Below, piece after piece: positions 4,986-59,430 of a DNA stretch of 64,000 nucleotides. Position numbers and translations under genes: made by a program. Source of the stretch: Spinacia oleracea (lineage: Eukaryota > Streptophyta > Magnoliopsida > Caryophyllales > Amaranthaceae); NCBI RefSeq assembly GCF_020520425.1, contig NC_079487.1, forward strand, positions 79,613,141-79,677,140, in the 5' to 3' direction. Under the pieces are notes generated by a model, which was not told where the DNA came from, ran no database searches, and saw only the letters and a program-made list of their open reading frames with translations. Position 1 is the stretch's first letter, and each line of letters opens with the position of its first letter.

Positions 4986-4986
4986 C

Positions 4987-18814: not shown

Positions 18815-19150
18815 CCTTCTGTAACACCCCGACAATTCTCCTTTTTCTAAAATAACCCTTTTTATAAATATAACTATAGAGAATTATCAAAGTATTATCG
18901 CCCGTGTGAAAACGTAACGGCTTATTCAGAATTTTGCAGCGGAAAACATAAAACTAACTTTAGGTTTATAAATAAACAATTACATAATTAATCCCAAAAA
19001 CCAATCAACGAAAATAAGGAAATGTAAATAGTACGACAAGTTTAAAGTCCAATTTAACAAACTCAAGTCACTTAGCAAAACAAAATAAATACAAGCTCTC
19101 TAATCCCGATCCCAATGATGCATCATCTTCAAACCTGTAGATGGGCAACG

Positions 19151-19204
19151 CTTATTGATCCTTAGAGACTGCTCACCAAAATGGGTCATCACAGGATCAA
19201 TAAG
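19151..19204. repeat. 11-bp stem hairpin inside solo LTR A
   Basis: CTTATTGATCC (19151-19161) and GGATCAATAAG (19194-19204) are exact reverse complements around a 32-nt loop. The homologous site in LTR B (about 21163-21216) has one stem base changed. Confidence 0.7.
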
Positions 19205-22200
19205 GCATAGCCATGATCAACACACACAAACAAAGTACGTAATCAGCAAAGCTGAGTACTACATACTAAATCAATAATAATCCTAACATGATTCTATTAA
19301 ACGAACAATCCTAACATGATACTAATAAAACATAAGTAAGGGCAAACAAAACATATTAATTTGAAGACCACACCTGACTAGACTAGGTTAGACTGGACTA
19401 GAACTTTTATAACAATAATATTATTTTAATTGAAATAGTCAATGGACCGAGTTGTCTAACTAGAAGCTTCACTAAGGAAGACGAGGTACAGGCGCGACTC
19501 TGTAACCTCAGTGACCTGCGATATCAAGGAACTTTTGAATAAAAATAGAACACGGTGATCAATCCGGTCCCAAAAAAGGCCATGGGCTACCACCATGAAC
19601 CCCAACTCCTGTTTGTCCGTCACTTCAGACGTGCACAGTCTAAAGCTATTGCTATTCAGTTTCACTTTACATGATTTACCAATTAATACTTTGTTATGAC
19701 TCGACAATCACATAAATCATAAAATCAACAAGTATTCACAACTGTTTTTATCTTGGAATTAGGTAAGCGATCACAAAGTTCTCAATGAACAACTCATTAC
19801 AATTAATTCAACCTTTCCTTTAACAATGATCAACCCCTCTATATGGGTATAAGGTTTCAACTTACTAAACAAGGTCCTCGGCCCTCATAAAGTAGTGAAA
19901 TGCTAAAAGGGAACAACGATCAATCGATCCAAACCAATATATGTAAAATAATCTAATGTTCCCAACCAACATGTTTGCATCAATCATCCATACTAACATG
20001 TTATAGTTCTCATAACGAAATATATGTTCAACATGTTCATCCAACAACATTAAACATGTAAATTTCAACATCACCAAGTTCATCGACAAATTCAACATGG
20101 TTTCAATAATAACACACATCCCCAAGCACACAGGTATGTAGGTACCTTGTGTAAACAAACTGATAGGCCACTTTAACACTTTCAAAAGTCGCCTAAAGAC
20201 AATTCTCCGCCTAAAACAACCAACAAATATTCCCAATCAATTTCTAATCATTCGCAACCATAATAAAGCATTCTAAATACATCCTAAACATATTTAGAAC
20301 CTTCCCCAATATCAAAACTTGAATATTTGATTTCCTAGCATCATAATTATTGAATTAGTGATTGAAATTCGTTGGAGACTCTTTGCAAACATCGTACTTT
20401 AAATTTTCAGCAATATAACTTATTTAAAAACTTCACCAAGGCCAATTTACGTTCCTAGTACATCGAGACAATAAATTTAATAATCCACAATCGTCCTACC
20501 ATGTTTAACAACCATTAAAACCTTGAAATTCATACTTTAAATAATCAAAAATCAATATTTCAATGCATTTATATAATCTGAAAATTAAATATATTATTTA
20601 AACATAATATATGAATCTTAAATTCTAATTAAATCATAAAAATCCTAAATTCAATTTAATTAAAATATAACATAAATTAATAACATAAAAATTAGAATAT
20701 TTAATTTAATTGCTTAGAGTTCAAGAAATAACCAAGAAATAAGAGGGTTTGGGCGGCCGACGGACTGAGTCACGGCGGCAGGTGGTTGGAAGGGTGGCGA
20801 CGGTTGCAAGCAAGGTGGAGTTGGTTGCGGGTCTGTAACACCCCGACAATTCTCTATTTTATAAAATACTCTTTTAATATAAAACGTAGAGAATTATCAA
20901 GGCATTATCGCCCGTGTGAAAACGTATCGGCTTATTCAGAATTTTGCAGCGGAAAACTTAAAAATAACTTTAGGTTTATAAATAATCAACTACAGAATTA
21001 ATCCCAAAACCAATCAACGAAAATAAAATCAATGTAGATAGTTCAACAAGTTTAAAGTCCAAATAAACAAACTCAAGTCAACTTAGCAAATCAAAATTAA
21101 ATACAAGCTCTCTAATCCCGATCCCAATGATGCATCATCTTTAAACCTGCAGATGGACAATGCTTATTGACCCTTAGAGACTGCTCACCAAAATGGGTCA
21201 TCACAGGATCAATAAGGCATAGCCATGATCAACACACACAAACAAAGCACGTAATCAACAAAGCTGAGTACTACATACTAAGACAATAGTAATCCTAACA
21301 TGATTCTATTAAACGAACAATCCTAACATGATACTAATAAAACATAAGTAAGGGCAAACAAGACATATTAATTTGAAGACTATATTTGACTGAACTAAAC
21401 CTTTGTATCATTAACATTATTTTAAGTGAAATAGTCAATGGACCGAGTTGCTACTAGAAGCCTTCACTAAGGAAGACGAGGTACGGGCGCAACTCCGTAA
21501 CCCCAATGACCTGCGATATCGAGGAACTTTTGACTGAAATAGAGCTGGTGATCAATCCGGTCCCAGAAAAAGCCATAGGCGACCTATGACCCCAACTCCT
21601 GATTGTCCGTCACTTTAGACATACACAGTCTAAAGCTACTGCTACTCAGTTTCACTTTACATGATTTACAGATTAAAACTCTGTTATGACTCAACAATCA
21701 CATAAGTCATACAATCAACAATTATTCACAACTGTGTTTATCTTGGAATTAAGTAAGTGATCACAAAGGTATCAATCAAGACTCATTCCAATTAATTCAA
21801 CCTTTCCTTTAACAATGATCAACCCCTCTATATGGGTATAAGGTTTCAACTTACTAAACAAGGTCCTCGGCCCTCATAAAGTAGTGAAAAGCTAAAAGGG
21901 AACTACGATCAATCAATCTAAACCAATATATATAAAATAATCTAATGTTCCCAACCAACATGTTTGCATCAATAATCCATACTAACACGTTATAATTCTC
22001 ATAACGAAATATATGTTCAACATGTTCATCCAACAACATTAAACATGTAAATTTCAACATAACCAAGTTCAACAACAAATTCAACATGGTTTCAATAATA
22101 ACACACATCCCCAGGCACACAGGTATGTACGTACCTTGTGTAAACAAACTGCGAGACCACTTTAATAATTCAAAAGTCGCCTACGGAGAATTCTCCACCT

Positions 22201-23538
22201 AACAACAACCAATATAGACTCATATCAATTCACATTGAATTTTCAGCAACATTAGGGAGCTTCAAACCCTTCCTAAACATAATTAGAACATTCTCCAATG
22301 TCAACACTTAGCTACTAAACCTCCTAGCATAGTGATTACTAATGACCTTAATTTATCATAAACCTCAATAAACATTCCTTTTTAAAATTTCCAGCAATAT
22401 AAACTATTTTAAAACTTCACCAACACCAAATTAACATGCTTAGAATCATAAAAATCATAACTTTGGTAATTCATAATCATCCTACCATGATTTAAAATCA
22501 TTAAAACTTTAAAAATTCATACTTTAATAATTAAAACCATTATTTCAATCAAATTGTATAATCTGAAAATTAATAATTTAATTATGCAAAACATGAAATA
22601 TGAAATTCATAACTTAATAATAAAACCATAATTTAATTCAATAAAAACACGAATTATATTAATAAAACGTAAGTAATCATTTAATTAGTTTAGGGTTTAA
22701 GAATTAACCAAAGGAGAAGAGAGGGAGGTGCTGGCCGGCGGGCAGGGCGGCGACAGAAGGGCAGGAGACCGGCTAGGCGCCGTGGCTGGGCGCAGAGAAG
22801 GTGGTCGTGTTCGGTGGTCGAACGGTGGTGGTTGTTGCTAGTGACGAGAGAGGAAGAAACGAGGAGTGCAGAAAACCGACGACTCTGCAGGTGGGCAGCA
22901 CAACGTGGAGGAGCACGACGAGTGTGGCTGGTGGTGCTCGATGGTTTTGCGGTGGCAACACGGTGGTGTGCTGGGAAAAACTAGAAACAGAGAAACAACG
23001 ATTAATGGGTTTGCAAGAAACCGAAACTAAAGAGTTCAGGAGAACGAAGGAGAGAGAGAAGGAGAAGAAGAATTATCGGCGGTGAAGGGTGGCAGAACGC
23101 CGGTGTCGTGCATGGATGGTGGCTGGTGGCGTCGTTTGAGAGTTCACGTGAAGGGGAAGCAAGGTTTGAGGGTTTTGGTGTTTTCGTTTCACGTGAAATT
23201 GAAGCAAGGAGAAGGAGTTGAGTTTCACGTAAAACAAAACAAGGGTGGGGAATTATGGTTTTGTTTAGTTTGGGCTTTACCCATTTGGGCTAGGATTAGG
23301 ATTGGGTTTTAATGTTTGAATACAAAGCCGATTAAGATTGTTTCCCCAAATTCAAACGTGTTTTCGTAATTCAAATTCTTTTCAAAATAAAATTCTAAAT
23401 TTATTTTTGATTGCATAAATTCTTAAAATTTTAAAATGCATTTGAATAAATAAATATACATTAAATATGTATATTTATTACTAAAATTCACCAATAAATA
23501 CCTAGTATTTAAAAAACACAACCACCCCCATTACAATG

Positions 23539-23546
23539 CCACGTGG
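23539..23546. promoter_or_regulatory. G-box CCACGTGG near the Helitron 5' end
   Basis: A palindromic G-box, the plant bZIP/bHLH binding core, lies about 40 bp inside the inferred Helitron start. A second ACGT-containing copy (GCCACGTCGCC) follows about 26 bp later within a repeated ATTACA(A/G)TGCCACGT block. A promoter role is inferred. Confidence 0.4.
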
Positions 23547-24063
23547 CCCATCCCTATTACAGTGCCACGTCGCCCGCCATGTGTCTTCAATCCAAAAAAA
23601 AAGGGAAATTACAAGGAAAGAGAAAAAGAAAAAGAAAAACAAAACAAAACAATAGGGAGCAATGGAACTTGGCATCACCGTTTCCCATGTCCCTTTCTCT
23701 TTCCTCCTTCTCCTTGCCATTAATTACCATCATTCATTCCGGATTTATTCGCCATCAATAACCAGAATCATGAGGGTTGAACAACCACCGTATTCATTTC
23801 CAACTTCAATCGAAATTGACTCCTCTTGAATCTTCATTACACTCCAAAGAAAACCCTTGCAAGAACCTTCAATTGGACCTCGAACTAGAATCAAAATCCA
23901 ATTTCACCTTCAATTCGATCCCACCATCTTCTCCCTAACTTTGATAACCTCCATTCTCAAATTAATTACGCTAGAAAACATTAACAAAATCTTAAACCAT
24001 GTCGGTTACGGTTTCGTTTCACAATTGGTTATTGAACTTCCACCTCACATCTCTTAATCCAAT

Positions 24064-24088
24064 CCTAACTCTATTTAACAGAGTTAGG
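24064..24088. repeat. Perfect 9-bp stem hairpin
   Basis: CCTAACTCT and AGAGTTAGG pair exactly around a 7-nt AT-rich loop. No U-run follows, and its role is unknown. Confidence 0.7.
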
Positions 24089-24368
24089 TATGCCATCAGT
24101 AATGATTTGACCGTGAGCTTACATCAGGTATGATTTTCTATGTTATTCGACCCTGTTCTTATTTGGCTTAGTTTACGCTTTTGAATAGTAGTATGGTTTT
24201 TTAATGGGTATTGATTCACCACTTTTGGGGTTTGTAATTGATGTGTAGTTTTGTTTTTCCATTCCCAAAATGTATTGTACTGAATGTTGATATTTTCCCC
24301 CAATTTTGTGAATTATGAGTTGATTGATTTTGTTTAGTAGCACACACCTTTGCTGGGACATTCAGAGT

Positions 24369-25088
24369 ATTAAGCTGTGAGGTTGTGAGATATTTGTGTC
24401 TTGGTTAAGTTGTGATAGCAGGTGGTGTTTAGTGTCCTGTCATATAGTTACCCCATTCCATTGAAAATGATATGTCAACTTAACTAAGTTACTGTCAAAA
24501 TTGTCTTCTGCCATGTCCTCATATTATGTTTTTGATGTGTTTGAATGAGGGATGTGAGCAGATAAGCCTGAATGGCTTGGTACAATCCCCCCCCTTAGTA
24601 TAGATGGGTTAAATAAGTTCGATAGTTATAAGGAAATTAAAACGTGGGCCTTTCTCGGTTTGAAATGGAACATTGTTACAAGTTTGGTTTGACAAATCAT
24701 CACGAAGCCTTTTTATTAGGCCTTCCCACACAAATGACAAATCTGTTGTAGAATGGACAAGAGGGTTCAGCTTCCTCTAAATGAATCCAAACGACTACAA
24801 CTCCCTTTGAACTTACTAAAGCTTATGTCGTACTCCTATGTCTTTTTAATGGTTCTACAAATTTAGCTACCTTATATTAAGCTGTGAGGTTGTGAGATAT
24901 TTGTGTCTTGGTTAAATTGTGATAGCAGGTGGTGTTTCGTATCCTGTCATATAGTTACCCCATTCCATAGAAAATGAGATGTCAACTTAACTAAGTTACT
25001 GTCAAAATTGTCTTCTGCCATGTCCTCATATTATGTTTTTTTGACGTGTTTGAATGAGGGATGTGAGCAGATAAGCCTGAATGGCTTG
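24369..25088. repeat. Direct duplication of about 210 bp with 300-bp spacer
   Basis: Copies at 24369-24579 and 24876-25088 both start ATTAAGCTGTGAGGTTGTG and end GATAAGCCTGAATGGCTTG. Only a handful of substitutions and one extra T separate them. The spacer is unrelated sequence. Confidence 0.9.
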
Positions 25089-26827
25089 CCATCTTACTGA
25101 GTTTTAGGACTAGGCCACAATAAGTAATGAATTGAGATTGTTTAGAAAGTGAGAAGTGATGATATAATAGAGTTCTCCGTTGTTTAATAGAACAGTCATA
25201 GGAACCATTTATTTTCAAGTTTGAAGACGTATGTTAACAAGAAATATGCTGCTTGATCTTGAAAGTTGGCATTATAACTCATGCAAACAACACCAAAAAC
25301 TGTTCGTCAGAATCAACTGAAAGTGTTATAGGTTTTGAGCAAGAGTATAATAAACAAGTTAAATTTATTGTGCTTTTTTTAGGTTTACAAATGTATGAAC
25401 ACAGGTTAAAGGAAGATTAACAACCAAAACCCAGAATAAAGTAGCTTGGTTTCCATAATTATATGATGCAAACAAAATTAGGCCTATTCAATTAAACAAA
25501 ACTTCTAAAAGCCTACCAACTTCCCACTAAGGATTATAGAGCCAACAAATCCAGTCTACATTAGTGCCCTTGGAGATTATTTTTTAAGCATCCATAGTTC
25601 CAAACATCTTTTACAATATGATCTTAAACTCTGTGATTTCCCCAATTCCATGTCTTAAGCCTGTTGGGGGTCCAACAATTAATGTGGGCATATCGTGCTT
25701 CCCAGGTCTACTGCCCAAGCACTAAGCCTCTACAGCCCTACCTGATCCAACCAAAAGTAAGTGTGTGCCAAAACCAGAGGCTACTAATTCCTGCAGGCCA
25801 GCATCAACTATGTCTGCAGTGAAGGAGTTAATTACAAGCCCATTAAACCTGGTGATGCAGCTTCAGACCAAATAAGTCTAGGCCCCATAATACTCTCACA
25901 ATCACCTATGCCATGAACACATTTACCAGACCATAGGTTTCCAGTCTTTCCGTTCAAAATATATGTTTCGCTCTGCATTTTAATAGTGGATAATTCTTGA
26001 TGGCATAAAATCATCACAAATCTATATGCTTTCAAGATCAATGAACACCTTACTGAATTAAGCCTTGTGTACAAAATCAGTAACTTTTTTGAATGTCATT
26101 TGAAATTAATTTCGTTAAATATAAATGGAACCCTGCACTTTAAGAATTAAGAGTTAGCTCCCTTGTGGATAGGAATTTGTGAATATAATAGAGTTGAGCT
26201 TGCATTTTAATAATGTCATTTGAATAAAAAAGAATGTAGTATTGCATTTACCTTTAATATTCTTAAGTCGTACCTTTCATTTAAAGTGTAGTATAACGAT
26301 GAAATATTATTTACCCACTGCCTGATTATGCTCCAGGAAACTATGTCCAACTTTTGAACTACCTAAAAGCGGTTTTGGAATTGTTTGTGGATACATGTTC
26401 CATTCTTTGGTTTGTTTCATGTAGCTGGTGTTCTGGAAGGTTCAAGACCCTACAAAGGTGATCCTTTATCTTACTTTATCTTACTTCCTTTCCTACATTC
26501 TCAAATGAATTATGTTTTCCCCCTAGGTTATGATTTGTCTTTAAAATGATTTTAGTATTTATAATGCAGAGGCATTAAGGCAATAGACCATCCACTTAAT
26601 AACCATATTGTTACAGAAAATTATTGTCAAAATGCAGAAGCAAAATAGACCATTCACTTAATAACAATGATAATTGTTACAGATAATGATTGTAAAAATC
26701 ATACTAATCTTTTATTATATTGGTTGCTACCTTTATTTAGATACCAAAAACATCATTTCTAGCCCGTATGTTATCTATAAACACGCAATATTCACCTTCT
26801 TTTCCCATTTCTTTTTAAAAAAAGAAA

Positions 26828-27271
26828 ATGAAGAATGGCAGGAAACTCTTCACTATTAGTTTCACAACGTTGCTTGGACATATTGTTCAATGGTATGGTC
26901 TACCTAGACCCCTGTATAGACAATACTACAAAGTTAAAAGAAACAAGTACAAGGTTGTTGTGAAGCTTACAATGAGAAAGGAAGACTTGCCAATCAAAGT
27001 TTATAGTAAGCTACACAAAGACATTGCACAAGCTTCTGAAGATGCAGCAAAACAATTAGTCAAAATTATACAACAAACACATAATTTTGATGTATAAGAT
27101 GTGAACTATGAAGTATGCATGCAACAAAGGAAAAAAAGACGTTTAGCTGAGATTAAACTAGCCACGGAAGAGATGAGCTTCAATGATCTTAAGCGAAGCT
27201 ACTTTGAAGTTTGTGATGAGAATAGAATTATCAGAAAACATCTACAGAATTTAGGGGTTTTACAGCAGTAG
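26828..27271 (+). pseudogene. Small dsRBM-like frame in the Helitron 5' half, one internal stop
   Basis: A single frame of 147 codons runs from ATG at 26828 to TAG at 27269 with one in-frame TAA at 27095-27097. The first part has the spacing of a double-stranded-RNA-binding motif: a GLPRPLYRQYY segment, then alternating beta-like KVVVKLTM, then a basic alpha-like part ending SEDAAKQLVKII. The second part (SFNDLKRSYFEVCDENRII) looks helical. The dsRBM reading is by pattern only. It could be a captured host exon set or a lineage-specific Helitron accessory. It precedes the Rep gene in the same orientation. Confidence 0.4.
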
Positions 27272-27559
27272 AAAATACTCTGTTAAGTCCAAATCCGTTC
27301 ATATCAATATATTTTAAAAATGTATGCTCAATTTATGTTTGCATTCCCAATAAATAATTGAGATTACAATCTTATCTTTACTCAAATGAGTCTTATCTTT
27401 GTCTATCTTTACTTACCATTTACATATATTTTGGTCACAGTAATATATTTCTGGACGTTCCTTTCGCTGACCAAATTCATGCGGTTTAAGTTATATTCGA
27501 AGACTATGCGTCAGTACCTCGTGCTAAATAAATTTTATTCACAACTATTGCAGATTGAA

Positions 27560-28225
27560 AATGAATGAGGAAAAAGAAAAAGATAAACATGCCCGACTGT
27601 TAAGAAAACATATACTTACCCAAAGAAGAAATCGGCGGGCATTGGCCTCTACTACATCCCCGAGAGTTGTGCAACAAAGGGTCGGGAATCAACACTCCGA
27701 ATCAACAAATGGTACAAATTAACATTGGATCTCATATCTAAAGTTGTTTGATTTAGTTGTTTACAAAAATTAATTTGATCTCATTTTGAACCACAGGTCT
27801 CCAGCAAACACAAAGTGTGGAACTCCATCAAACTGTCAGTTTGCAAATGGAATATGGTAAAGACAAAGCTAGACTTGCTAGATTGTACAGAAAACATATA
27901 CTTACCCAAAGGAGAAATCGACGCTCATCACCCTGTAGACCGTCCTCGAGAGATGTTAGAAGACTCATGAGTGATAGCATTGGTAAGGGTAAATTGTGTT
28001 GCAAAATATATGACTTACATTTGAAAAATGTAACGAATAGGCCCTAAATGTTATGTATTTGGTAATAGACATTGCATCCATCTCAACCGGTATACCACCT
28101 ACACCAAGCCGTGGTAGAAAACGGACCCATCTCAACGGCCAACTAACTACATCAGCGGGGGCACAACAAAGGATCGTAAATCAAAACTCCCAATCACCAA
28201 ATGGTAAAGATTAGTACTATATCTC
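27560..28225 (+). pseudogene. Decayed N-terminal exons of the Helitron Rep gene with duplicated basic module
   Basis: Two copies of a basic module containing RKHILTQRRNRR occur at about 27569-27712 and 27850-27985, each followed by a plausible donor (GGTACAAA, GGTAAGGG). A third, weaker segment lies at 28070-28210. Basic Arg/Lys-rich N-termini are normal for plant Helitron Rep proteins. Exon limits are uncertain, and no continuous frame links them to the Rep domain downstream. Confidence 0.45.
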
Positions 28226-28461
28226 ATGGTTCAAATTGGTTGTTGGTTTTCTAATTTTATTCTGACCATCCTTGCATTTTGAACCGCAGATATGGAGCAA
28301 ACACAAAGTGCAGAACTTCATGGCCATCAACAAATACCCAAAACTATGAGACATCCATGTGAGAATATATTCGTCTAGCATTAAAATTATAATGTGGGTA
28401 GATAAACAAATGAACCTAATGTGTTGTTCTAATTATACAAGAATATACACCGAACCATGAA

Positions 28462-30663
28462 CTTTCGGTAGGCCAACTGAAGTGTGTCCAAATTGTGAAG
28501 CTATTGTTTGGTATGAGGAACGGGCGAGGAAGGACAGAAATAGTGTTTCACCTGAATACAGTATATGTTGTCAAAAGGGCAAGGTCAGGTTACCTCTATT
28601 GAAAGGCCCCCCTGAATTTTTGAAGGATCTATTGGACAATAATGATAGTCGATCAAAGGATTTCAAAGTAAAAGGAAGGATGTACAACTCCATCAATGCT
28701 TTTACTTCAATGGGAGGGAAGGTAGATAGCAGCATCAATCGAGGAAATGCTCCATATGTGTTTAGATTAAATGGCCAGAACCACCACAAGATTGGATCAT
28801 TGCTTCCGCCAGAAGGCCAACAACCAAGATTCACGCAGCTTTATATTTACGACACACAAAATGAAGTAGCAAATCGGATAAACAGCCTTGGAAGTGGGGG
28901 AGAGAACCCAGAACTAGACCCTGAAATCGTAGCCGGATTATCAAGAATGTTTGATGAGCATAATGCACTAGCAAAAGTGTTTCGAATGGCAAGGGAAAGG
29001 TTTCATGAGTCTGATTTACAACCTGTGAAGATTCGATTGATTGAGCAAAAGATGGAAGACAATAAAACCTCCCTACTACCACAGAGATTGCTGCTTTGAT
29101 AGTGGGTACAGGCGATACAAAAAAAGGGCCTCGCGATGTCATTATCGAGGACAAACACTTTGGTCTCAAAAGGATATCCGAACTTCACCCCAGTTTCATG
29201 GCAATGCAATATCCACTACTTTTTCCCTATGGAGAAGATGGATACAGAACAGAAATCCCCCACAATGACGTGGAAGAAACGGGGAGAAGGGTAAGAACTG
29301 CAGTCACTATGAGAGAGTACTATGAATTTCGGTTTCAACAGAGAAAGAAGGAGGCAAAAACAAGATTCCAATTGGGAAGACTAAACCAACAACATCAAGT
29401 TGACGCCTTCACCTGCATGCAAGAAGGCAGACTAGAATGGGTTAGAGGCAACCAAAAACAACTTCGCAAAGATGTGCTACGTGGATAACTGATGCTGTTT
29501 CTAGAGGAGACATAACACCTGCATCTGTAGGCCAACGTGTTATACTACCGACATCTTTCACTGGAAGCCCGAGATTCATGATTCAAAACTATCACGCCGC
29601 CCTAGCTATTTGCAGATGGGATGGCCCTCCAGATTTGTTCATCACCATGACATGTAATCCAAGATGACCAGAGATTAGGGAATTCCTATCTTGATTCCCG
29701 GTCAAAAACCAGAAGATCGACCTGATATCATCGCTAGAGTGTTCAAGATAAAGTTGGATGAGGTGATGGTGGACCTCACCAAAAGAAATATTTGTGGTCG
29801 TACTAAAGAAGGTAAATAATTCATTTACTAACTAATCTATACATGTCTTATCATAAATTAAGCGCTATAAATGTTCAATACATGCATGCAGTTTCAAAAT
29901 TCACTGTTTTCGTTTGATGTGGGATATGTTATGATTTTATCTTAGAAGCCTAAAAAGTATTATGCCATGGGAAAATCAGTTTACACTGCCATGTATCTTC
30001 AATATTGGAAACGGGGTAGAATAAGTAAACCAATATTGTACAAGCCCTTTTCGTAGTTAAATTTAATTCTAATAAACAAACAATAATATTATAGGACAAT
30101 TTTGTTTCAATTTTTTTTAAGAGATTTCTGGATTGTATTACTTTGGAATGGTTATTGATAATAGATTTTGTACAATAAAAAACCTTGCATATTCTAACCT
30201 ACAGAGTCATCTTGCAGCAATATATACGATTGAGTTTCAAAAACGAGGCCTCCCACATGTGCATATGTTGTTGTTTTTGCATGAAGCGGACAAACTACGA
30301 ACTGCAGCAGACATTGACCGACTAATTTCAGCAGAACTACTAGAGCCGAAAAAAGACCCAGTCGCATTTGAAGCAGTAGTACAATACATGACTCATGGTT
30401 CGTGTGGTAGCTTGAACCCAAAATGTCCATGTATGCATGATGGTCGGTGTACAAAATACTATCCTAAAGACTTCAACAACGACACCGTCGTTGGTGAAGA
30501 CGGATATCCTGCATACAAGAGAAGAAACAATGGAAGGACATCAGAAAAAAATGGGCAGACAATTGATAATACCTTCATTGTGCCCTACAATGTGGACTTA
30601 CTGGTAAAGTATCAAGCACACATCAATGTGGAAGTGTGCAACAAATACACATGTACCAAATAC
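28462..30663 (+). pseudogene. Helitron Rep (HUH nuclease) half of RepHel, decayed
   Basis: The protein starts with GRPTEVCPNCEAIVWYEERA, the Cys-rich N-terminus usual in plant Helitron helicase-like proteins. It continues through the Helitron N-terminal domain (SELHPSFMAMQYPLLFPYGE) and the LTDAVSRG and TCNPR regions. A GT-AG intron spans 29812-30217. The HUH motif is HVH in RGLPHVHMLLF, with codons at 30256-30264. The frame is broken by a shift near 29070, another near 29485, a TGA in the NPR-PEI region near 29667 and another shift near 29690. The last codon before the copia insertion is the first Tyr of the YLFKY catalytic motif (30661-30663); the rest of the protein resumes at 51391. The gene would nick and rejoin DNA at the element ends in rolling-circle transposition. 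Confidence 0.85.
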
Positions 30664-32070
30664 TGAAGGAAATAATGCCCTTGGTCCAAGTAGGCATTTA
30701 ATGATAAGTCTAATAAATGAGGTTCAGTATTAATTATGCAAGTTAATAATTCAGTGAGATCAAGTGAACTGTATGGCTAGCTAGAGGCCGCTTCAGTTCA
30801 AGTGGATTAATGATATTAATCCACAGCTTACTCTTGACTGAACCCGTAGGGTCACACAAATAGTACGTAAACGGATCAAGCATTTAATGGCATTAAATAC
30901 TCTATCTAATCAATATTCGAAATCGACGGATCTTGGCTTCAGTGGGAGCTGAGATCGTCAAAGGCAAGTAAATGAATACTCCGGAAACGATGATATTACC
31001 GGAAACGGAAATATGGATCGTATCCAAAATATAAATATTATCCAAGTCGTAGATGTTGCTGGAAACGGAAACATGGTACGTATCGGAAAATATTATCGGA
31101 AATGGAAATATTGCCGGAATCGGAAATATTGCCGGAAACGGAAATATTTTCAGAATCGGAAATATTATCGGAATCAGAAAATAATTCCGGAAACGGAAAT
31201 ATTAAATATTTGTTCGAGACGGAAATTAATTCCGGAATCGGAAATGTTAAATATTGTTCGTATCGGAAATGAATTCCGGAATCGGGAAATTAATCGGAAG
31301 CGCATCGTACGAATTAGCATCGGACGAGCTTGCTAGACGAAGGCCCAGCACGAAGCCAGGCCCGCGTCTAGCAAGGCAATAGCGCGCCACACACGCCCAG
31401 CACAAGGCTGCACCAGTCCCACCGCAAGGCAGGCCTAGCGCGCGCCAAAGGGGCAGGCAGCTCGTGGGCTTCGTGGCCGAGTGGGCTGCGTTGCTAAGGC
31501 TTCGCGCGCGCGCGCATGGCGCCTTCGTGGGCTGCTGTACGTACGTGTGTGTTTGTGTTCACATACGAAACCTAAAGCATATAGGATTCGTTTGATGATT
31601 AAATTTCCTAATCCTAAAAGATAAATTAATTAATTAAAGAGTTCTGCTAGGATTCTAATTTAATTAATTCGTATCCTAGTAGGATTCACTTGCTTATTCC
31701 ATGGCCTATAAATATGAGATCTAGGCTCATAATTTACAACGAGTTTTGAAGTATTCAAAGGTAAGAATTTGAGCAAAAATTCAGTCATACACTTGCCCAT
31801 AATAGCCGAATATTTTAGTACCTTAAGGGCGATTCTAGTTGGTCAATCTTAAGGCGGATCCGGACGTGCTGTGGACTTTCTACGGAGGGACGACACTTGG
31901 AGTCCTAAAGACTTGTTCTTGTTCGGTTCGGGCGCAGTAAGGGAGGGCACGCTACAAAGAGTATGCATCCTAGTTATGCTAATTGTTATTTGGCAATTAA
32001 TTTGGAATCCTGGCGTTTATGGTTTTTTTCCGCATGATTTATATTCGTTTATATGTATCATAACCTAACA
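30664..32070 (+). repeat. 5' LTR of copia element 1
   Basis: TG...CA ends, 1407 bp. It contains the 18-bp CGGAAATATT-type array (about 30985-31300), a GC-rich block (31330-31560) and a TATA box TATAAATA at 31707-31714. These imply a U3 of about 1.05 kb. Confidence 0.93.
30985..31300. repeat. 18-bp (C)CGGAA(A/T)CGGAAATATT array in the LTR
   Basis: A dozen or more degenerate units built from two palindromic words, TTCCGGAA and AATATT, recur in U3. The same array is in all four LTRs here: 33285-33615, 42304-42640 and 50290-50625 are the others. Because 18 is divisible by 3, the array reads as a basic RKRKYC-like hexapeptide repeat; I regard this as a by-product. Confidence 0.9.
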
Positions 32071-32973: not shown

Positions 32974-32978
32974 GTGTG

Positions 32979-43434: not shown

Positions 43435-43439
43435 GTGTG

Positions 43440-48100: not shown

Positions 48101-49142
48101 AAGCAGTCAGTGACTTTGGTTTCATCAAGAACGCAGACGAATCTTGTGTATACAAGAAGGACAGTGGAAGCAAAATCGCTTTTCTAGTATTATATGTCAA
48201 CGACATATTAATTATCGGAAATGACATTCCTATGTTGAACTCTGTCAAGAAGCACAGTACATACTGGGCATCAAGATTTATAGAGATAGATCTAAGAAGA
48301 TGATTGGACTCGGTCAAAGCACTTATATCAATAAGGTGCTTGAAAGGTTCAAAATGGCAGACTCCAAGCGAGGCTACCTACCCATGTCTCATGAAATGAC
48401 TCTAAGCAAGATTCAGTGCCCAAAAACACTAGATGAGCATAGACGAATGAATGGGATTCCATATGCATCATTGATTGGTTCAATAATGTATGATATGATA
48501 TGTACACGGCCGGATGTTGTGTATGCAATCAGTGCTACGAGCAGATACCAGTCAGACCCAGGAGAGGCACATTGGACTGCTGCCAAGAACATTCTGAAGT
48601 ACCTGAAAAGGCACAAAGATGATTTCCTGGTCTATGGTGGAGATGATGAATTAATTGTTAAAGGCTATACGGACGCAAGTTTCCAAACCGACAAAGATGA
48701 TTTCTGATCACAGTCTGGGTTTGTCTTCTGCCTCAACGGAGGTGCAGTAAGCTGGAAAAGTGCTAAGCAAAGCACCATTGCGGATTCTACAACTGAAGCG
48801 GAGTACATTGCTGCACATGAAGCAGCAAAGGAAGCTATATGGCTAAAGAAGTTCATAGGTGAACTTGGTGTAGTCCCCTCCATTAAAGGACCAATAGATC
48901 TGTATTGTGATAATAATGGAGCTATTGCACAGGCAAAGGAGCCTAGACACCACCAGAGAGTCAAGCATGTACTTCGTAGATTTCACCTTCTACGAGAGTT
49001 CGTTGAAAAAAAAGAAGTCGAGATAAGCAAGATTGGAACTGATGACAACATCTCAGATCCATTAACTAAACCTCTGCCGCAGGCGAAGCACAACTCGCAC
49101 ACTGCAACTATGGGAATCAAGCATGTTGGAGAATGGCTTTGA
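45187..49142 (+). pseudogene. Copia 1 gag-pol polyprotein, broken by two stops and a deletion frameshift
   Basis: I chose ATG 45187 (MENNNQN); an in-frame ATG at 45142 adds 15 hydrophobic residues and seems part of the leader. Gag is followed by a zinc knuckle CLYCDGIGHYKRES in which the final Cys is Ser (46008-46010). The protease motif is LDTGCGSH. Integrase has its zinc-binding HHCC part and the D, D and E residues in HTDVCG, RSDRGGEY and NGVSERRNRT. RT begins KARLVAKGYRKVHG, and RNase H follows with YTDASF and TTEAEYIAA. The frame is cut by TAA at 46306-46308, a small out-of-frame deletion near 48250 and TGA at 48705-48707. RT motif A reads QMNVKTAFL and the active-site box YVND, so both catalytic Asp positions are Asn (47938-47940 and 48199-48201). 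The element cannot make an active polymerase. Confidence 0.92.
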
Positions 49143-49980
49143 TGTCCTTATTTAATGTTTTAAAGTTTTAGAGTTTAAATCTTTGTAAAACATTATTGGT
49201 TAATCGTTCACAATAAATGAATATAATTCATTTAAATGATGAGTTCCTTCAATTTGTCGATATATTCAAGATAGACTGTCAGGACCAGTCCTGTGACTAA
49301 GAAATGTCTATCAAGTGAACTTGAATGTCAAAAGTTGAAAATGGTCCCTGGTCGGAGTTTTCTATAAAGATGGACGCATAGAAAACGTTAGACGATTAGA
49401 ATTCAAGATGACTAGTAGTTCTGTTTCTTGAACTATGTGGACATGGCAATGTCGTAATCATTTGCATAGATACTTACTTTGGGAAGACTAGTATTGGACA
49501 GACCTATGAAACTTTACTGTAAGAGATGAAAATCAGTCATAAGTAAATTTCATTAAAATTATTAGACACTAATCCTCAATACCTGAGTGATTTGAGATTA
49601 CTTGTTTGAGAACTGCTTACTTTGACGTTGTCAACCGTCGCACCGTAAAAGGAGGCTATAAAGGCAACTCTCAGGTAATCACCTATCAAACGAAGTCTAA
49701 TTTCAAGATCGCAAGATTGGGATTGTCCTCCCATAATTCGGGATGAGACGCTAAAAGTTGTACAAGGCCACTCGGAGAGCTAGAAACTGTAAAATGCATG
49801 GCCGTGCTCAGATGAATCATGGGCTATGATTATCTGTTTATTTGATCAGTTGAACTCTGAAACCGAGAAACACCTCTGGACATAATAAGGATGACAACTC
49901 TTACCTTATGTTCAAGAGCAAGCATCGAGTGACAAAGGAATTAGGAAATGCACACTTGTCCCTAAGGACAAGTGGGAGAC
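49143..49980 (+). other. Copia 1 3' non-coding region and polypurine tract
   Basis: About 840 bp between RNase H and the 3' LTR, highly similar to copia 2 41215-41997. It ends with the PPT hairpin at 49953-49974 and purine-rich GTGGGAGAC. This is long for a copia 3' region and conserved between copies, suggesting a cis-acting role. Confidence 0.7.
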
Positions 49981-51385
49981 TTAAGGAAATAATGCCCTTG
50001 GTCCAAGTATGCATTTAATGATAAGTCTAATAAATGAGGTTCAGTATTAATTATGCAAGTTAATAATTCAGTGAGATCAAGTGAACTGTATGCCTAGCTA
50101 GAGGCCGCTTCAGTTCAAGTGGATTAATGATATTAATCCACAGCTTACTCTTGACTGAACCCGTAGGGTCACACAAATAGTACGTAAACGGATCAAGTAT
50201 TTAATGGCATTAAATACTCTATCTAATGAATATTCAGAATCGACGAATCTTGGCTTCAGTGGGAGCTGAGATCGTCAAAGGCAAGTAAATGAATAATCCG
50301 GAAACGATGATATTGCCGGAAACGGAAATATGGATCGTATCGGAAATATAAATATTATCCAAGTCGTAGATGTTGCCGGAAACGGAAACATGGTACGTAT
50401 CGGAAAATATTATCGGAAATAGAAATATTGCCGGAATCGGAAATATTGCCGGAAACGGAAATATTGTCAGAATCGGAAATATTATCGGAATCGGAAAATA
50501 ATTCCGGAAACGGAAATATTAAATATTTGTTCGAGACGGAAATTAATTTCGGAATCGGAAATGTTAAATATTGTTCGTTTCGGAAATGAATTCCGGAATC
50601 GAGAAATTAATCGGAAGCGCATCGTACGAATTAGCATCGGACGAGCTTGCTAGACGAAGGCCCAACACGAAGCCAGGACCGCGTCCAGCAAGGCAATAGC
50701 GCGCCACACACGCCCAGCCCAAGGCTACGCTAGGCCCACCGCAAGGCAGGCCTAGCGCGCGCCAAAGGGGCAGGCAGCTCGTGGGCTTCGTGGCCGAGTG
50801 GGCTGCGTCGCTCGGGCTTCGCGCGCGCGCGCATGGCGCCTTCGTGGGCTGCTGTGCGTACGTGTGTGTTTGTGTTCACATACGAAACCTAAAGCATATA
50901 GGATTCATTTGATGATTAAATTTCCTAATCCTAAAAGATAAATTAATTAATTAAAGAGTTATGCTAGGATTCTAATTTAATTAATTCGTATCCTAGTAGG
51001 ATTCGATTGCTTATTCCATGGCCTATAAATATGAGATCTAGGCTCATAATTTACAACGAGTTTTGAAGTATTCAAAGGTAAGAATTTGAGCAAAAATTCA
51101 GTCATACACTTGCCCATAACAACCGAATAATTTAGTACCTTAAGGGCGATTCTAGTTGGTCAATCTTAAGGCGGATCCGGACGTGCTGTGGACTTTCTAC
51201 GGAGGGACGACACTTGGAGTCCTAAAGACTTGTTCTTGTTCGGTTCGGGCGCAGCAAGGGAGGGCACGCTACAAAGAGTATGCATCCTAATTATGCTAAT
51301 TGTTATGTGGCAATTAATTTGGAATCCTGGCGTTTATGGTTTTTCCGCATGATTTATATTCTTTTATATGTATCATAACCTAACA
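49981..51385 (+). repeat. 3' LTR of copia element 1
   Basis: 1405 bp with the same array, GC block and TATA box (51024-51031) as the 5' LTR. Its first two bases are TT rather than TG, a post-insertion change. Confidence 0.93.
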
Positions 51386-51390
51386 AATAC

Positions 51391-53868
51391 CTGTTCAAGT
51401 ACATGAACAAGGGTCCAGATATGGCACTGGCAACAGTATAAGAAGCTACAGAAAATGAAATGCACGGAGGACATCAAGCCAATCGTGAACCACAAAGAGA
51501 TGAGATTAAATCTTATTTGCAATGCAGATACGTATCTGCTGCAGAAGCGTGTTGGAGAGTTTTTGGCTTCCCAATACAATATAAGTACCCCCGGTTCAAC
51601 GCTTAAGTTGTCACCTCGAGCAAGAGAAAACTGTAATGTTTGAAGATCACGAGTCCCTGGATCAAGTCCTAGAAGGAGTAGGACATGCAAACACTCCTCT
51701 CACCGGGTGGCTGGAAGCAAATAGGAAGTACCCAAATGCAAGAAAACTAACATACCATGAATTCCCAACTGATTGGGTATGGCAAAGGAAGGAAAAGAAA
51801 TGGAAAGGAAGAGACGAAGGGTTCAAAATAGGGAGGATATACTTTGTGCACCCAGCATCAGAGGAGCTTTACTACTTGCGTATGCTCCTTAATATAGTCA
51901 GAGGTTCAACAACCTTTGCGGAAATAAGAACGGTGAATGGCATAGAATTTGCCACATTCAAGGAAGCTTGCAATGCTTTGGGTCTTCTAGAAGGAGATAA
52001 TGAATGGCATCAAGCTTTACAAGATGCATCATCTTGGGCCCATGCCCCACAACTTAGAGAGTTATTCGTCACAATGTCAATTTTCTGTGAAGTATCAAAT
52101 CCCACTGACCTATGGGAGAAAAACTGGGAGCTCCTATCAGATGTTGTCCTATACCGGCAACGCAAAAGGTTTAATTCGCCCAACATTGTCCTGACGACTA
52201 ACCAGGTGCAAAACTATGCATTATATGAGATATAATTGATCCTTAACCGGAATAACAGGAGCCTCACAAACTACGCAAATATGCCATTCCCAGACATGTC
52301 TCTAGTGCAACAAACTTCAAACAGAATGATATTGGAAGAGCAAATGTTTGATATGGCCACGTTAGCAGAAGAAGCATCTAATCTAGAAGCAGGCCTAAAT
52401 CCAGAACAAAGCTCTGTGTACCGTCAGATACTCGACAATGTTGAGAACAGAACAGGGGGAGTATTCTTCATTTACGGCAGCGGAGGTACAGGGAAGACAT
52501 ATTTGTGGAGCACCTTAATTTCAAGGATTAGATCTCAAGGAGGTATAGTCATCGCAGTCGCCTCATCTGGAATTGCAGCACTATTACTTCACTGTGGAAG
52601 GACGGCACATTCACGCTTTAGCATCCCAATTAATTTGAATGAGAACTCATGTTGCAGAATAAGCTAAGGAGCTGACTTGGCATTTCTCCTCCAAAAAGCA
52701 ACACTCATAATATGGGATGAAGCTCCCATGGTCCACAGACATGCCTTTGAGGCAGTACGTGGACCGCTCTTTACGTGATATTATGCAAACAATTAACCAG
52801 GGCGCTGAAGACAAACCCTTTGGAGGAAAGACAGTGGTATTAGGAGGTGACTTCAGGAAAATATTACCAGTAGTTCCACGAAAAGGAAGACCAGATATAG
52901 TAGACGCATCTGTCAGTAGGTCGCCAACAATTTGGCCTCATTGCACCGTGTTCAAACTCACTACGAACATGAGACTGAGGGGAAGCACAACCACAATCGG
53001 AAAAGAACAAATGCAGGCTTTCAGCAAATGGGTACTAGATGTGGGCGATGGAAACATATCTTCCAGTGCTAAAAGCGGGGAAGATGAGGCTACTTGGATC
53101 CAAATACCAACTGACTTACTGGTAAAGGACCATGACGATAAAAAGGTCGCCCTTGTGGAAGAAATATACCCTGACCTTCTTCACAGGTACAAAGACATCA
53201 ACTACCTTTCTGAAAGGGCTATATTAGCGCCTAAAAACGAATGTGTGGATGAAATAAATAACTACATACTCTCGATGATCCCCGGCGAAGAAAGAGTATA
53301 TACAAGTGCTGATAGAGTAAGTCCCCTCACAAATAGAACCTCCATCGAAGAAGATCTATACCCAACAGAGTTCCTCAACACACTGCAGTTCCCTGGCATC
53401 CCAAATCATGAGATGCGACTAAAGGTAGATTGTCCAATAATCCTACTTAGAAACATCAATCAAGTTGAGGGATTATGCAATGGAACAAGGCTCATCATAA
53501 CGCGGCTGGAAGCAATTGTAATTGAAGCACAAGTGGTAACCGGAAAAAATGTAGGTCGCAGAGTCTCCATTCCGCGGGTAGAGATGACACCATCTAATCA
53601 CACACTGCCATTCACTATGAAGCGCAGACAATTCCCTGTCAAGGTATGTTTTGCAATGACAATAAATAAAAGTCAGGGTCAAACGTTCAACCGCGTAGGT
53701 GTGTATTTGCCAGAGCCTGTCTTTAGCCACGGACAACTCTATGTGGCCGTCTCCAGAGTCACATGTCGGTCTGGTCTCAAAATTTGTATAGGACGCCATG
53801 GAAACAACGTGGAAAATTGTTTAGAGACAAAGAATGAAGTGTATAGAGAAACTTTTAACAATGTTTAA
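51391..53868 (+). pseudogene. Helitron RepHel continued: second Rep tyrosine and PIF1-like helicase, decayed
   Basis: Directly after the TSD the Rep motif continues LFKYMNKGPDMALATV, with the second catalytic Tyr codon at 51400-51402. A stop follows at about 51439 and a shift near 51607. The linker region (RGSTTFAEIRTVNG, TFKEACNALGL) is typical of Helitron RepHel. The superfamily-1 helicase has Walker A GSGGTGKT (52476-52499), Walker B IIWDEAPM (about 52706), [10 protein letters not shown] and a C-terminal [11 protein letters not shown] and YVAVSRV (53741-53760). Stops at 52233 and 52665 and a +1 shift near 52755 break the frame. The last 383 codons (52717-53868) are open. The helicase would unwind DNA during rolling-circle transposition. 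Confidence 0.88.
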
Positions 53869-55460
53869 AATTAAAAACATAGGAAAGAACATATCCAGTG
53901 TTACCAAATAAAGACCATATCGGGCTGGAATTTTCATAAATATGTACATGGCCTATTGCTCATACATTGTGTAATGTTCTTTGACATCTATTCATTACTA
54001 TGATATTTGCATCCCATTACTTTTCACTGTGATTTTGAACCATTTTTAGGAAAACATCTTGCATCTGATTATAAAATTCAATGCTACAAACATTTTTCCT
54101 AATGCTTTCCTTTGGACATTTTTGCATTTTATACCGTAACAACTGTCAGTAGATCACTGTCATATGAGTTACTGAATTATTTACTTTGGTGATGAAAAAA
54201 AAAACAACTTCCTATATTTGCTATGTCCTGCATTTCATTTTCAACCCACTAAAACCATTACTTACCTCTGCAAGACAACAACTACTAACCCATTATACAA
54301 TGCATTTTCAGGAATACAAGGCCTGCAAGCAGAGGAAGACCCATCTTTTAAGTTCTGTGAACACTAACAAAAAACCAACGAGCAAAAACAGACCCCAAAG
54401 GTAAGCATACAACTCCTGGTATCCATAAGAGTATTTTACTATAATCACCTATTCTCACAAGTAAAACCAGTTGACTAAGAATCGGGTAAATATCACTTGT
54501 GTCCCCTTTACAAAATATTGGTACAACATACGTAATGCCATTAAGGAATTTAATCAATCTAAACAAAAATGCTTAGCGATACCGACAAATCGACGATGTG
54601 AGGAATTCATAATATTGTACACTGAAACGTGATCACAATGTAGCATAGTTTTGTAAATTGTGCAAAAGTGTGAATAGTTCCTTAATACAAAAATTAATGA
54701 TGGAAATTTTGCAGGTATCTGCGGTTGCATCTTCAGGAGCATTGCATATCTTTCATTGGTCCCAAGTATCCTACGCGTATAGACTGCTGCCTTTCCCAAG
54801 TTCCCTTTCCGTATCCTTTGATCACATCCTTCACTTGTGAATGATCTGTGCCATACAAATGCGGTTGCCGGCTACCCCAAGTTACATACATGTATTCTTT
54901 GCCCACATCTTTCACACTGTGGGTGATCGTTGGCATAGAGATGTGACTGAAGCTCTTCAGAAAATCAACGACCTTCACAATCAGGTATGTTTTGTACTGC
55001 ATTTAACAGATTGTAAAACACTGATGGTTTTCGTGTTAAGTCCTCCTTTCAGATAATAAAATGGACTATATATTAAATGACAAATTAACTACCTTAAATC
55101 AAATCACAAATAAAACAGCTAAGAAAACCAAAAAAACAGGCAGTAATGAAATACAAGCAATAAATAATGAAACTGAAAAAAAAAACAAACAAATGATATA
55201 GGTAACAAAATACAAAATAAATGGGTCAGTTACAATATTAAAAGGTAACATAAAATTCAAGGCTCAACAGTTAGAATTAACACCACCACAACTACAGTTA
55301 CAAACCGTCAAACCAGAAACCCAAATAATACACAAAATTAAAAATCACCTTGAATGACAAATTTAATACCCACTAGAATAAAACAACTATATAAAACCCA
55401 CCAAAACATCACTAAGAAACAGGAAGTCCAACAAACTCTTAAAATAGACGCTTTCCAGCC
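53869..55460 (+). other. Spacer between helicase and RPA genes of the Helitron
   Basis: Mostly AT-rich and non-coding. A short coding-like exon with donor GGTAAGC lies at about 54311-54400. A related pair of sequences with TTTGATCACATCCTTCAC and TTTGCCCACATCTTTCAC lies at about 54817 and 54898. I recognise no protein. Confidence 0.5.
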
Positions 55461-58002
55461 ATGTCAGGAGGAATCGCACCGCAAGACACACAGGTAAAAC
55501 AACTACACTACTCCATTTACTACAATGTACAATTATAATGTAATACTATCAAACAATGATGTTGTAGGATATGGAGGCCGCAAAGAACTACATTGCTGAA
55601 TTGGATACAACAAAAAGAGACCGGAGAATAACTGCACGAATAACCCGCATGTGGGAAGTGCGATACCAACCAACAAATCCAAACCCCGATACCATAGACA
55701 TGGTGCTCCTCGACGAACAGGTACATAACTGACTAAATTAGCTTTTCTTTAACAAAAATAAAAACTAACACATGAAAGTTGTAGGGTACACAAATACAAG
55801 CATTGATAAAGAAGGCATTAATCAATCACTTCAAGGAGAAGGTAACAGAAGGAAAGATATATACTCTCACTCATTTCAGTGTTGGAAAAAACACCCGATC
55901 ACGACTACAAGTAGAGAATGACTACATCACATGGTTCAATTCATTCACCTCGGTAACATTAGAAGAAGAAACTGTTGCCGCAATCCCGTTTCACAAATTC
56001 AACTTGTGTCCCATCGACCAACTAGCTAAACAATAAAGTTGACATACTCACAGGTAATATCAAAACACCCAAACTTACCTAAGTCGATTTGGTGGCTTAC
56101 TAAGTCAATTCACTAGAGTTAGATAACTCCCAATGGGTGCATGCTTTCAAGGGTTAAAGTACGAACAATAATAGTAGTAACTAATATAAATTTTTATTTA
56201 CTAATATGAATATTTTGGGATTCAGACAATATATTTCACCAACACACAGTTAAGCCGCGCAAACAAAAAAACAACAACATTAAATGAAAAAAAAAAACAG
56301 AAACCAACAGCTTCTTTGATTAACTTCCTACCACTGATGCAGAATTAATTGGACAACTTATTGGAGTAGAGAACAAAATCCACACATCAGATCATCGCCG
56401 AACGATCCACATGCAAGATGAAAGGTAAGGACTAAACAGAGGAAGCATACATACACAACAAACATAATAACAATATATGCAATGCCTTTACAATATATGC
56501 AATGCCTTGCTACAGGAAAAACAGTATTGCGGTAACGTTGTGGGGACCCCAAGCTGATCTGGTCCCAGATGACATACCAGACAATGGAGCACAACCACAG
56601 ATAGTAATAATCACAGCTACACGCTTAACAATGTTCAAAGGTAAACCCCTAGACAAACATATGACAACATCTAATTCAAACATGTACTCATAGCTAAACA
56701 TGTTGTTGCAGGGAACTATCAACTCAATTCCACAGGAGGAACTAAGATCTACATCAATCTAAACATCCTAGAAGTGGAACATTTCAAGAGAGAGTAAGAT
56801 ACCTTAAACACTACGCAATAGAAAAACAACAAAAACTACTCACGTTACTAATTATCACTTGTACCCTTTTAAAAAGCATGGTAGATGTCCCGCTACAAGA
56901 AATAGGTCGAATACAGGTCACCCAGCCAGAGAGCTTAGAGGAGGCGATGACCAAGAACCGAAAAACAATAACAGAACTACAACAACTATACATGGAGAGA
57001 GAAGAAAATGAGGTACGAACCTTCTTACTACATTACAAAAACTCACAAAACGGGAAAAAAAAACCACCATAACTTAACTTCACTACGCAAAACAACATGC
57101 AGGATTTGAAAAAAAACACCAAACAAAATTGAATAATCAATTTACACATGCAGGATTTGAAAACCACTTACACTTGCGTGGCAAAAATTTCATTCATCCA
57201 TGACGAAGAGTGTGGCTGGATGTACACTTCATGTAACAATTGCAAATCAAGGGTGGATGAGAACCAATACTGCAACAAATGTCAAGTAGTCCCAGAATTC
57301 CCCATCGATAGGTGGAGTATACAAACACAATGCCATTTTGCTATATTGTACCACAATCAAATCAAAATAACACATTTCAATTATTATAGGTACCGATTAA
57401 TTGCGACAATTGATGACGGGAACGCAACAATGACTGTGGGGATTTTTGACAAAGACGTGGAGAATCTAATTGGCAAACCAATAACATCAATGATGAAGAT
57501 TTATGAGCAGGTAACTCAACTCAACTAACCAAAACTCACTGCCTACCAAACTAAAATGAACAAAACAATAACTACAATGCAAAAACAGGAAAAGGGAGCG
57601 GAAAAGGTCTCAAAAGAGCTACAACAATGCATCGGGAAAAAATGTACACTCAAGCTCAAAGTTAACACCAAGGGATACATTCAAGAGCTAACTGCTATTA
57701 AGATCTTCCATGTGGAAACGGATGACAAAATAGTTGCAAAACGACAAGGGAAGGAGGTCCTAAAACAAATAAAAAAGGAAGGCGAGCCAAACAAGAAAGC
57801 CAAAATGATTGGGTAAGGAGCTTATCACAACAAATCCAAACTTATTTGTATACATGTAGGAAATATTCATATAATGTTTTACTAACATGTTACTAAAAAA
57901 AACAGGAACACTACAACAACAAAGGAGATAGCTACAACAAGCACAACCCCAACTACAAACCAAGAACCAATCAAGCTCACGGACGACGGACCAAAAACAT
58001 GA
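55461..58002 (+). pseudogene. Helitron RPA70-like single-strand-DNA-binding gene, multi-exon, decayed
   Basis: Exons with GT-AG borders can be followed: 55461-55493 (MSGGIAPQDTQ), 55568-55719, from 55785, about 56330-56424, about 56518-56640, from 56878, 57147-57311, 57390-57510, 57588-57812 and 57906-58002. Exon 2 holds DRRITARITRMWEVRYQP and the next exon HFSVGKNTRSRLQVENDY, the first OB fold. Exons near 56520-56690 give the second OB fold (NSIAVTLWGPQADLV). The zinc ribbon CNNC...CNKC (about 57235-57285) marks the RPA70 DNA-binding domain C. Plant Helitrons often carry such genes, probably to bind single-strand intermediates. One base is missing in exon 2 near 55680 and a shift lies near 56030, so it is probably not functional. 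The intron between IDR and YRLIATIDD (57312-57389) has no stop, so an unspliced reading looks open. Confidence 0.8.
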
Positions 58003-58563
58003 ATAATGACCCAAAGGAAAAAGGACAAACACAAATAAAAACATATTTCGTCTAACTAGAACAACTACACTTCTTACAACAACCAATGTCAGGATAATCA
58101 TGGACTTAATACAACTACTCCTGATTTCTAGAGAATTATTTGTTGTAGTTGGTTGATTAGTTGCCTTCATAAAATAAGTCCGGCGTCAATTCTGTTAGCC
58201 ATACAAATTGTACTATCATAAGGAAATTTTAAATCTGTCTATTGCATTACACTATCCATGTACTAATGACGAAAAAATTAAAAACACAAAATAATAGTAG
58301 CCTGACAAACACCTAAACCACAACCTTTGAATACAATACGCTTTCTAATCGCATAATGAAACACAACACCAAAGGCAAACAAAAAGATTAAACAAACCCC
58401 ACAACAACACCAAAAACAAAAACAATAAAAAAACAAACTCCAAACAACATATCAACAAACCAACAAAACCGTTCTCACGAGAATGAACCATCTACGGAGA
58501 AACAAACTAACAACAAAAATGAACAACCCATAGAACAAATCAAGAAAAACCCACATATAACAA
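58003..58563 (+). other. Helitron 3' non-coding tail
   Basis: Between the RPA-like stop and the terminal hairpin the sequence is A- and C-rich with no gene seen. It probably holds the RPA 3'UTR. Confidence 0.5.
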
Positions 58564-58593
58564 GCCCGTTCTTTGAGCGGGCCCAAAGACTAG
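58564..58593 (+). repeat. Helitron 3' terminus: hairpin plus CTAG
   Basis: GCCCG pairs with CGGGC around a 9-nt loop, then CCAAAGA and the terminal CTAG. This is the rolling-circle termination structure of Helitrons. T58594 is the host base. Confidence 0.88.
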
Positions 58594-59430
58594 TATAATT
58601 TAAATATAATTAATTATACGTAAAACTATATTAATAAACTTTATAAATATACGGGGGATTACAGGGTCGCGGTGCTTGCGGTGGTGGCTGACAAAAAAAA
58701 ACAACTACAATTAAGGAGGGCTAAACGAAGGGAGGAACGCAGACGAAAGAGAAAGAAAAGGAGAAGAGGAAGGAGAGAAGTTACTGGCGACGGTGAGTGA
58801 GAGAAATTGGTGACGTGCCGGCTGGGGGTGGCGGCGACGACAACTTGCGGTGGTTGCTGCAATTCAATGGCAGTGCTTAAGGAGAAAGAACGAAGCAAAG
58901 AGAGAGAAGAGAAAGGAGAACGAAAGGGAGGAGGGAGTTACCGGCGGTAAGGCTCGCCGGTGGTTGTGGCGGCGACGGCTGGGCAGCAGCAAGGGGCAGC
59001 GTCGAAGAGTGAGGGAGGCAAAGTTTTGAGGGTTCCTTGTTCCTTGTTACGTGAATAGTGAAGGGAGGGTTTGCTGAATTCTTTTGTTTCACGTGAAATA
59101 GAAAAGGGGAGGGAGGATTGTGTTTTGGGTTTTATTGTTTGGGCTTTGCAAAATGGGCTAGAATCAGGATTTAGTTTTAGGATTTCAATCCAAAATCGAT
59201 TAGGATCGTTTTCTAAATTCAATCGGTTTTCGTAATTCGATTTCTTTTCAACGTAAAATTCTAAAATTAATTTTGATTTCATTAATCATTAAAAAATTTC
59301 AAAATAATAAAATAAATATACGTTAATTATGTATTTATTTCTAAAATCCGTAAATTCTTATTTAAATATCATTAACTATACGTTAAAATATATAAATAAT
59401 GTTTCTAAATTTACGGGGGATTACACCTTC

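Follow-up and report, generated by a model that had tools for sequence, protein, structure and literature searches.

In a 22-Mb region of maize most long terminal repeat (LTR) elements are reported to lie in nested arrangements with the oldest at the base (PMC2773423), and wheat 3B is reported to carry 30,199 nested insertions in up to 8 layers (PMC4290129). Software for working out the insertion order of such nests has been described (PMC2672092). A text search of the spinach repeat survey (PMC6337768) found the word "nested" twice and did not find "solo". A narrow literature search, which included insertion into Helitrons, gave no match and says nothing on novelty. Here we examine a five-level transposon nest in spinach (Spinacia oleracea). 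It occupies positions 18815-59430 of a 64,000-nucleotide stretch of contig NC_079487.1 (79,613,141 to 79,677,140, designated C1:79613141-79677140 in our searches), hereafter the window. The nest is real. Like the stacks of maize and wheat, it consists of elements inside elements with the oldest at the base (PMC2773423). Unlike them, it has a large Rep/helicase Helitron at mid-level and two steps in which an element entered a member of its own family. The importance claimed for the nest in a preliminary description was overstated, nests this deep being commonplace in large plant genomes. The present one is an ordinary case of a known kind, and its most interesting part is the history of its innermost element, copia 2.

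From the outside in, the levels are solo LTR A, solo LTR B, a Helitron, copia 1 and copia 2. Four exact 5-bp target-site duplications (TSDs), CCTTC, GGGTC, AATAC and GTGTG, were located at the element termini by self-comparison and reading of the joints. The parts of the nest are as follows; PBS denotes primer-binding site and RPA replication protein A.

18815-18819: TSD of LTR A, left (CCTTC)
18820-20833, putative minus strand: LTR A left piece, which includes the left GGGTC; the solo LTR is 2,771 bp in all
20829-20833: TSD of LTR B, left (GGGTC)
20834-23494, putative minus strand: LTR B left piece; the solo LTR is 2,731 bp in all
23495-30663, plus strand: Helitron left part, which holds the first part of the Rep domain
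30659-30663: TSD of copia 1, left (AATAC), inside the Helitron Rep gene
30664-32068, plus strand: copia 1 5' LTR, 1,405 bp
32069-32978, plus strand: copia 1 leader up to the copia 2 insertion, starting with PBS-like TGGTATCACGAGCC
32974-32978: TSD of copia 2, left (GTGTG)
32979-34390, plus strand: copia 2 5' LTR, 1,412 bp
34391-41997, plus strand: copia 2 interior, 7,607 bp, with a pol relic containing stops
39346-39699, plus strand: best pol piece of copia 2, RVT_2, just below the curated cut-off
41998-43434, plus strand: copia 2 3' LTR, 1,437 bp
43435-43439: TSD of copia 2, right (GTGTG)
43440-49980, plus strand: copia 1 interior right of copia 2, copia domain order in broken frames
49981-51385, plus strand: copia 1 3' LTR, 1,405 bp, starting TTAAGG in place of TGAAGG
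51386-51390: TSD of copia 1, right (AATAC)
51391-58593, plus strand: Helitron right part, with PIF1-type helicase pieces, DUF223, RPA-like pieces, 3' hairpin and CTAG
52236-53868, plus strand: PIF1-type helicase pieces of the Helitron
55785-56033, plus strand: DUF223 piece of the Helitron, above cut-off
56436-56690 and 57133-57525, plus strand: RPA-like pieces of the Helitron, below cut-off
58594-58663, putative minus strand: LTR B right piece, 70 bp, identical to the genomic copy L034
58664-58668: TSD of LTR B, right (GGGTC)
58669-59425, putative minus strand: LTR A right piece
59426-59430: TSD of LTR A, right (CCTTC)

Four exact 5-bp TSDs at predicted termini would occur by chance with a probability of about 1e-12, assuming independent sites and equal base frequencies. 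The element lengths add up to 40,591 bp (2,771 + 2,731 + 14,372 + 10,261 + 10,456) against an observed span of 40,606 bp. The 15-base excess arises because B, copia 1 and copia 2 each add a second TSD copy. The preliminary description gave each of the five levels its own signature, and the TSDs, termini, Helitron hairpin with CTAG and A/T site were all found where it had placed them.

We are very confident that the stack records five independent transposition events, one element inside another. First to insert would have been a Ty3-type retrotransposon, of which only solo LTR A was later left. A related element would have inserted into LTR A and likewise collapsed, giving solo LTR B. The 14.4-kb Helitron would then have entered B between A and T, 70 bp from its right-hand end. 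Copia 1 would have followed into the Rep gene of the Helitron, and copia 2, of the same LTR family, into the untranslated leader of copia 1. The order of events proposed earlier holds for the insertions. Recombination that made A and B solo could precede or follow the later insertions, so the solo-LTR step of either is not ordered relative to the inner levels.

Relatives were sought in the whole genome (894,210,420 bases, 242 contigs). Rejoined flanks were compared with uninterrupted relatives at the four inner joints, as the preliminary description had proposed, and alignment failed at none of them. For copia 2, the rejoined copia 1 leader matched genomic copy L061 in one stretch, 1-619, that runs through the joint at 319. 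The same leader matched copia 2's own leader in one stretch (1-418, 84.1%). The joint of copia 1 in Rep was tested at the protein level, with Helraiser and not a genomic Helitron as reference: CNKYTCTKY-LFKYMNKG, the frame restored by rejoining, aligns gap-free to the bat Helraiser transposase (7lcc, E 1.3e-12). The joints of B in A and of the Helitron in B were read against an uninterrupted LTR, described below.

Both copias have an LTR pair, a 5-bp TSD, and PBS-like and polypurine tract (PPT)-like sites judged by eye, TGGTATCACGAGCC being the PBS-like one of copia 1. Both elements presumably belong to the Angela lineage. Copia 1 spans 30664-51385 (10,261 bp without copia 2), and its LTRs are of the TG..CA form except that the 3' one starts TT rather than TG. 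Its broken frames hold Pol_BBD, gag_pre-integrase, integrase, SH3-like and RVT_2 domains in copia order, with rve at 125-222 before RVT_2 at 462-649 of a 664-aa frame. Copia 2 spans 32979-43434 (10,456 bp). The two same-family steps were borne out: the LTRs of copia 1 and copia 2 are 84.4% identical, and A and B share 84.8% identity across 1,933 columns.

The divergence of the LTR pairs agrees with the nesting order. The copia 1 pair differs by 42 substitutions in 1,403 sites (K 0.0306, 2 gaps) and the copia 2 pair by 2 substitutions in 1,412 sites (K 0.0014, 2 gaps covering 25 columns). Substitution rates used for dating are 7e-9 and 1.3e-8 per site and year. At these rates copia 1 would be 2.2 or 1.2 million years (My) old and copia 2 would be 0.10 or 0.05 My old, with an interval of 0.007-0.37 My over both rates.

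With no intact pol, copia 2 cannot be equated with copia 1. No sense frame longer than 118 aa was found in its pol region, and its longer frames are confined to its GC-rich leader repeat. The best frame matched RVT_2 at 2.9e-7, slightly under the curated cut-off. Three pieces align to the main pol frame of copia 1 at 28-45% protein identity with 12 stops, and a fourth, of 25 aa, has 40% identity and no stops. In DNA the pol regions of copia 1 and copia 2 are 59-64% identical. Since copia 2 inserted, the three relic pieces should have gained about 0.7 substitutions (upper 2.7). Against 12 stops this number is small, so the decay of pol predates the insertion, and copia 2 would have moved on the enzymes of a relative. 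Copia 2 was probably mobilised in trans. We consider it likely that its lineage lost pol long ago to unconstrained mutation, kept a functional LTR, leader and PPT, and very recently inserted in trans. In this reading the lineage shares LTRs with coding copies such as copia 1, its insertion target.

Copia 2 might instead have inserted as a normal coding copy and lost its pol only afterwards, with gene conversion perhaps holding its LTRs alike. The frames of copia 1 are broken as well, as such a course would allow. Yet the substitutions predicted since insertion are far from 12 stops and 28-45% protein identity in the relic pieces. In addition, copia 1 encloses copia 2 and sets an upper limit on its age, and the LTR divergence of copia 1 (K 0.031) falls far short of what pol regions 59-64% identical in DNA would require. 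We regard decay after insertion as highly improbable and prefer a pol lost before copia 2 moved.

Two other copies lend partial support to a copia 2 subfamily. L055 matches copia 2 at 40453-41997 (92.2%), and its LTR is 93.4% identical to that of copia 2 versus 85.2% to that of copia 1. L048 matches copia 2 at 41419-41997 with 98.8% identity versus 95.9% for copia 1. Over the part compared, L055 looks like a second member of such a subfamily. Non-autonomous LTR retrotransposons mobilised in trans include BARE-2, Dasheng with RIRE2, and large retrotransposon derivatives (LARDs). Copia 2 resembles them in its LTRs, retained PBS-like and PPT-like sites, lost enzymes and recent insertion. It differs in keeping a ruined but recognisable pol where those elements, as we understand them, have a deletion or unrelated filler.

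The Helitron lies exactly at 23495-58593 between A and T and is 14,372 bp long without the copias. It shares with plant Rep/helicase Helitrons carrying RPA-like genes the TC...CTAG family ends, the hairpin, the A/T site, Rep, PIF1 and DUF223. Helitron_like_N was above cut-off in two pieces, and PIF1 and Helraiser matches were also found. It differs from such Helitrons in its TA start, its broken frames and two RPA-like pieces below cut-off. The 3' end has a GCCCG...CGGGC hairpin and CTAG, followed by T. The 5' end is ambiguous from the window alone; it reads TAAATACC in the window and TCAATACC in most relatives. A search with 23476-23700 gave 143 candidates, of which 40 were scored, yielding 20 loci including the window. 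Among the 19 others, 18 were scored; L027 is without the terminal motif and was left unscored. All 18/18 scored relatives start with TC, and the preceding base is A in 16/18. The cut at 23495 is confirmed to the base by the uninterrupted LTR copy L034, so the two sources together fix the 5' end there. In 2/9 relatives fetched further, C6:84430000 and C3:122002700, both termini were aligned, with A immediately to the left and T to the right in each case. Once the Helitron is removed, LTR B fits L034 exactly and shows no duplication at the site. Insertion was probably by rolling circle.

Three trial 5' cuts compared with LTR A alone were undecided, and the genomic relatives settled the end. A start at TCACC (23488) was rejected: no scored relative starts there, and the exact LTR match runs on through CACCAA. 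The Helitron also holds a direct repeat of about 213 bp (24368-24579 and 24875-25088), 96% identical and 507 bp apart, in which TG..CA ends or a TSD were not seen by eye.

LTR A begins with TG at 18820 and ends with CA at 59425. Both A and B have LTR-like termini, a 5-bp TSD and no interior, and LTR-LTR recombination would account for them. By self-comparison their right parts are 76.6% identical over 274 columns and 86.4% over 66, the 84.8% given above being for the left part; the GC-rich middle aligns poorly. The search for LTR relatives gave 40 scored hits, 21 on the plus strand including the window, and the other 20 were fetched (L029-L048). L034 is a solo LTR, uninterrupted and bounded by a TSD of a different sequence, TCTGG, and is contiguous across both the B-in-A and the Helitron-in-B sites. 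Against A, its alignment breaks off at locus 2181, where B inserted, and picks up again on the far side at 2183. Against B, it stops at 23494 (locus 2880) and continues from 58594 (locus 2881); the final 70 bases are the same in both. L037 and L043 likewise show the sequence at the Helitron site without interruption. The LTR end was reached within the fetched stretch by 8/20 copies and not by 12; all 8 align at the Helitron site without an insert. Over its left part, L034 (189-2950) is closer to A (90.5%) than to B (86.1%). With its last 70 bases equal to B, this suggests an exchange between subfamilies.

A shared flank like the reverse complement of a PBS precedes L030, L036, L038 and L043, and one like the reverse complement of a PPT follows L029 and L037. 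We take these motifs to be PBS-like and PPT-like, and from their orientation the sense strand of A and B would be minus. One of four minus-strand frames of L029 matches Retrotrans_gag (6.6e-11) and also Ty3_capsid (1e-6, just below cut-off); the other 3/4 gave no domain match. The gag-type frame points to a Ty3-type family for A and B, and from the LTR ends we presume the Tekay lineage.

A and B could be short non-autonomous elements with LTR-like ends. Neither has an interior in the window, and no member of the family was seen in full with an LTR at either end. Against this stand the PPT-like or PBS-like flanks that, as we read the motifs, adjoin units of the family in the six copies just listed, the Retrotrans_gag match in 1/4 frames tested of L029, and three of the 20 fetched copies (L034, L039, L045), which are solo with matching 5-bp TSDs. 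Short non-autonomous elements are still less probable than late decay of copia 2, and we retain solo LTRs for A and B.

Several observations weigh against the five-level nest as described. For the outermost level, A in its host site, the evidence is the TSD and termini only. The B-in-A site is contiguous in only 1/20 fetched copies (L034), and LTR B itself aligns poorly to A around it. A full Ty3 element bounded by two matching LTRs was not seen, no copy having been traced across its whole length. The Helitron in the window begins with TA rather than TC, itself preceded by A, two of the 18 scored relatives are preceded by another base than A (L015 by G, L026 by C), and 2/3 replication-protein-like pieces are below Pfam cut-offs. 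The leader match of L061 is only 81.7% identical and is gapped on both sides of the joint. That an assembly chimera or rearrangement joined repeat pieces with no true insertion stack is the least probable alternative of all: the A/B LTR is highly repeated (3,242 first-look candidates, 40 scored) and of a class prone to misassembly, but a chimera would give neither four exact TSDs at element termini nor joints that agree with uninterrupted relatives.

Two other repeats lie in the window. A 347-bp unit at 4984-5330, with 108-bp inverted ends that are 93.5% alike by self-comparison, is possibly a miniature inverted-repeat transposable element. At 2872-3338 a 234-bp unit is duplicated in tandem, the two copies being about 88% alike.

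The same copia family occurs at the break in 3/12 of the LTR copies that do not reach the LTR end (L033, L040, L048). The copia starts directly at the break in L040 (1653) and L048 (843), and about 115-130 bases past the last LTR match in L033 (2250). In this small sample, such insertions recur in the spinach genome. The nest leaves views on the workings of transposons unchanged. As a clean insertion series with two datable levels, it is a possible benchmark for annotation programs that resolve nests. Copia 2 offers one sharp case of a pol ruined long ago in an element that inserted very recently. If its history is as we read it, the two copias would offer a natural means of measuring for how long a retrotransposon in ruins can persist on the enzymes of a relative.

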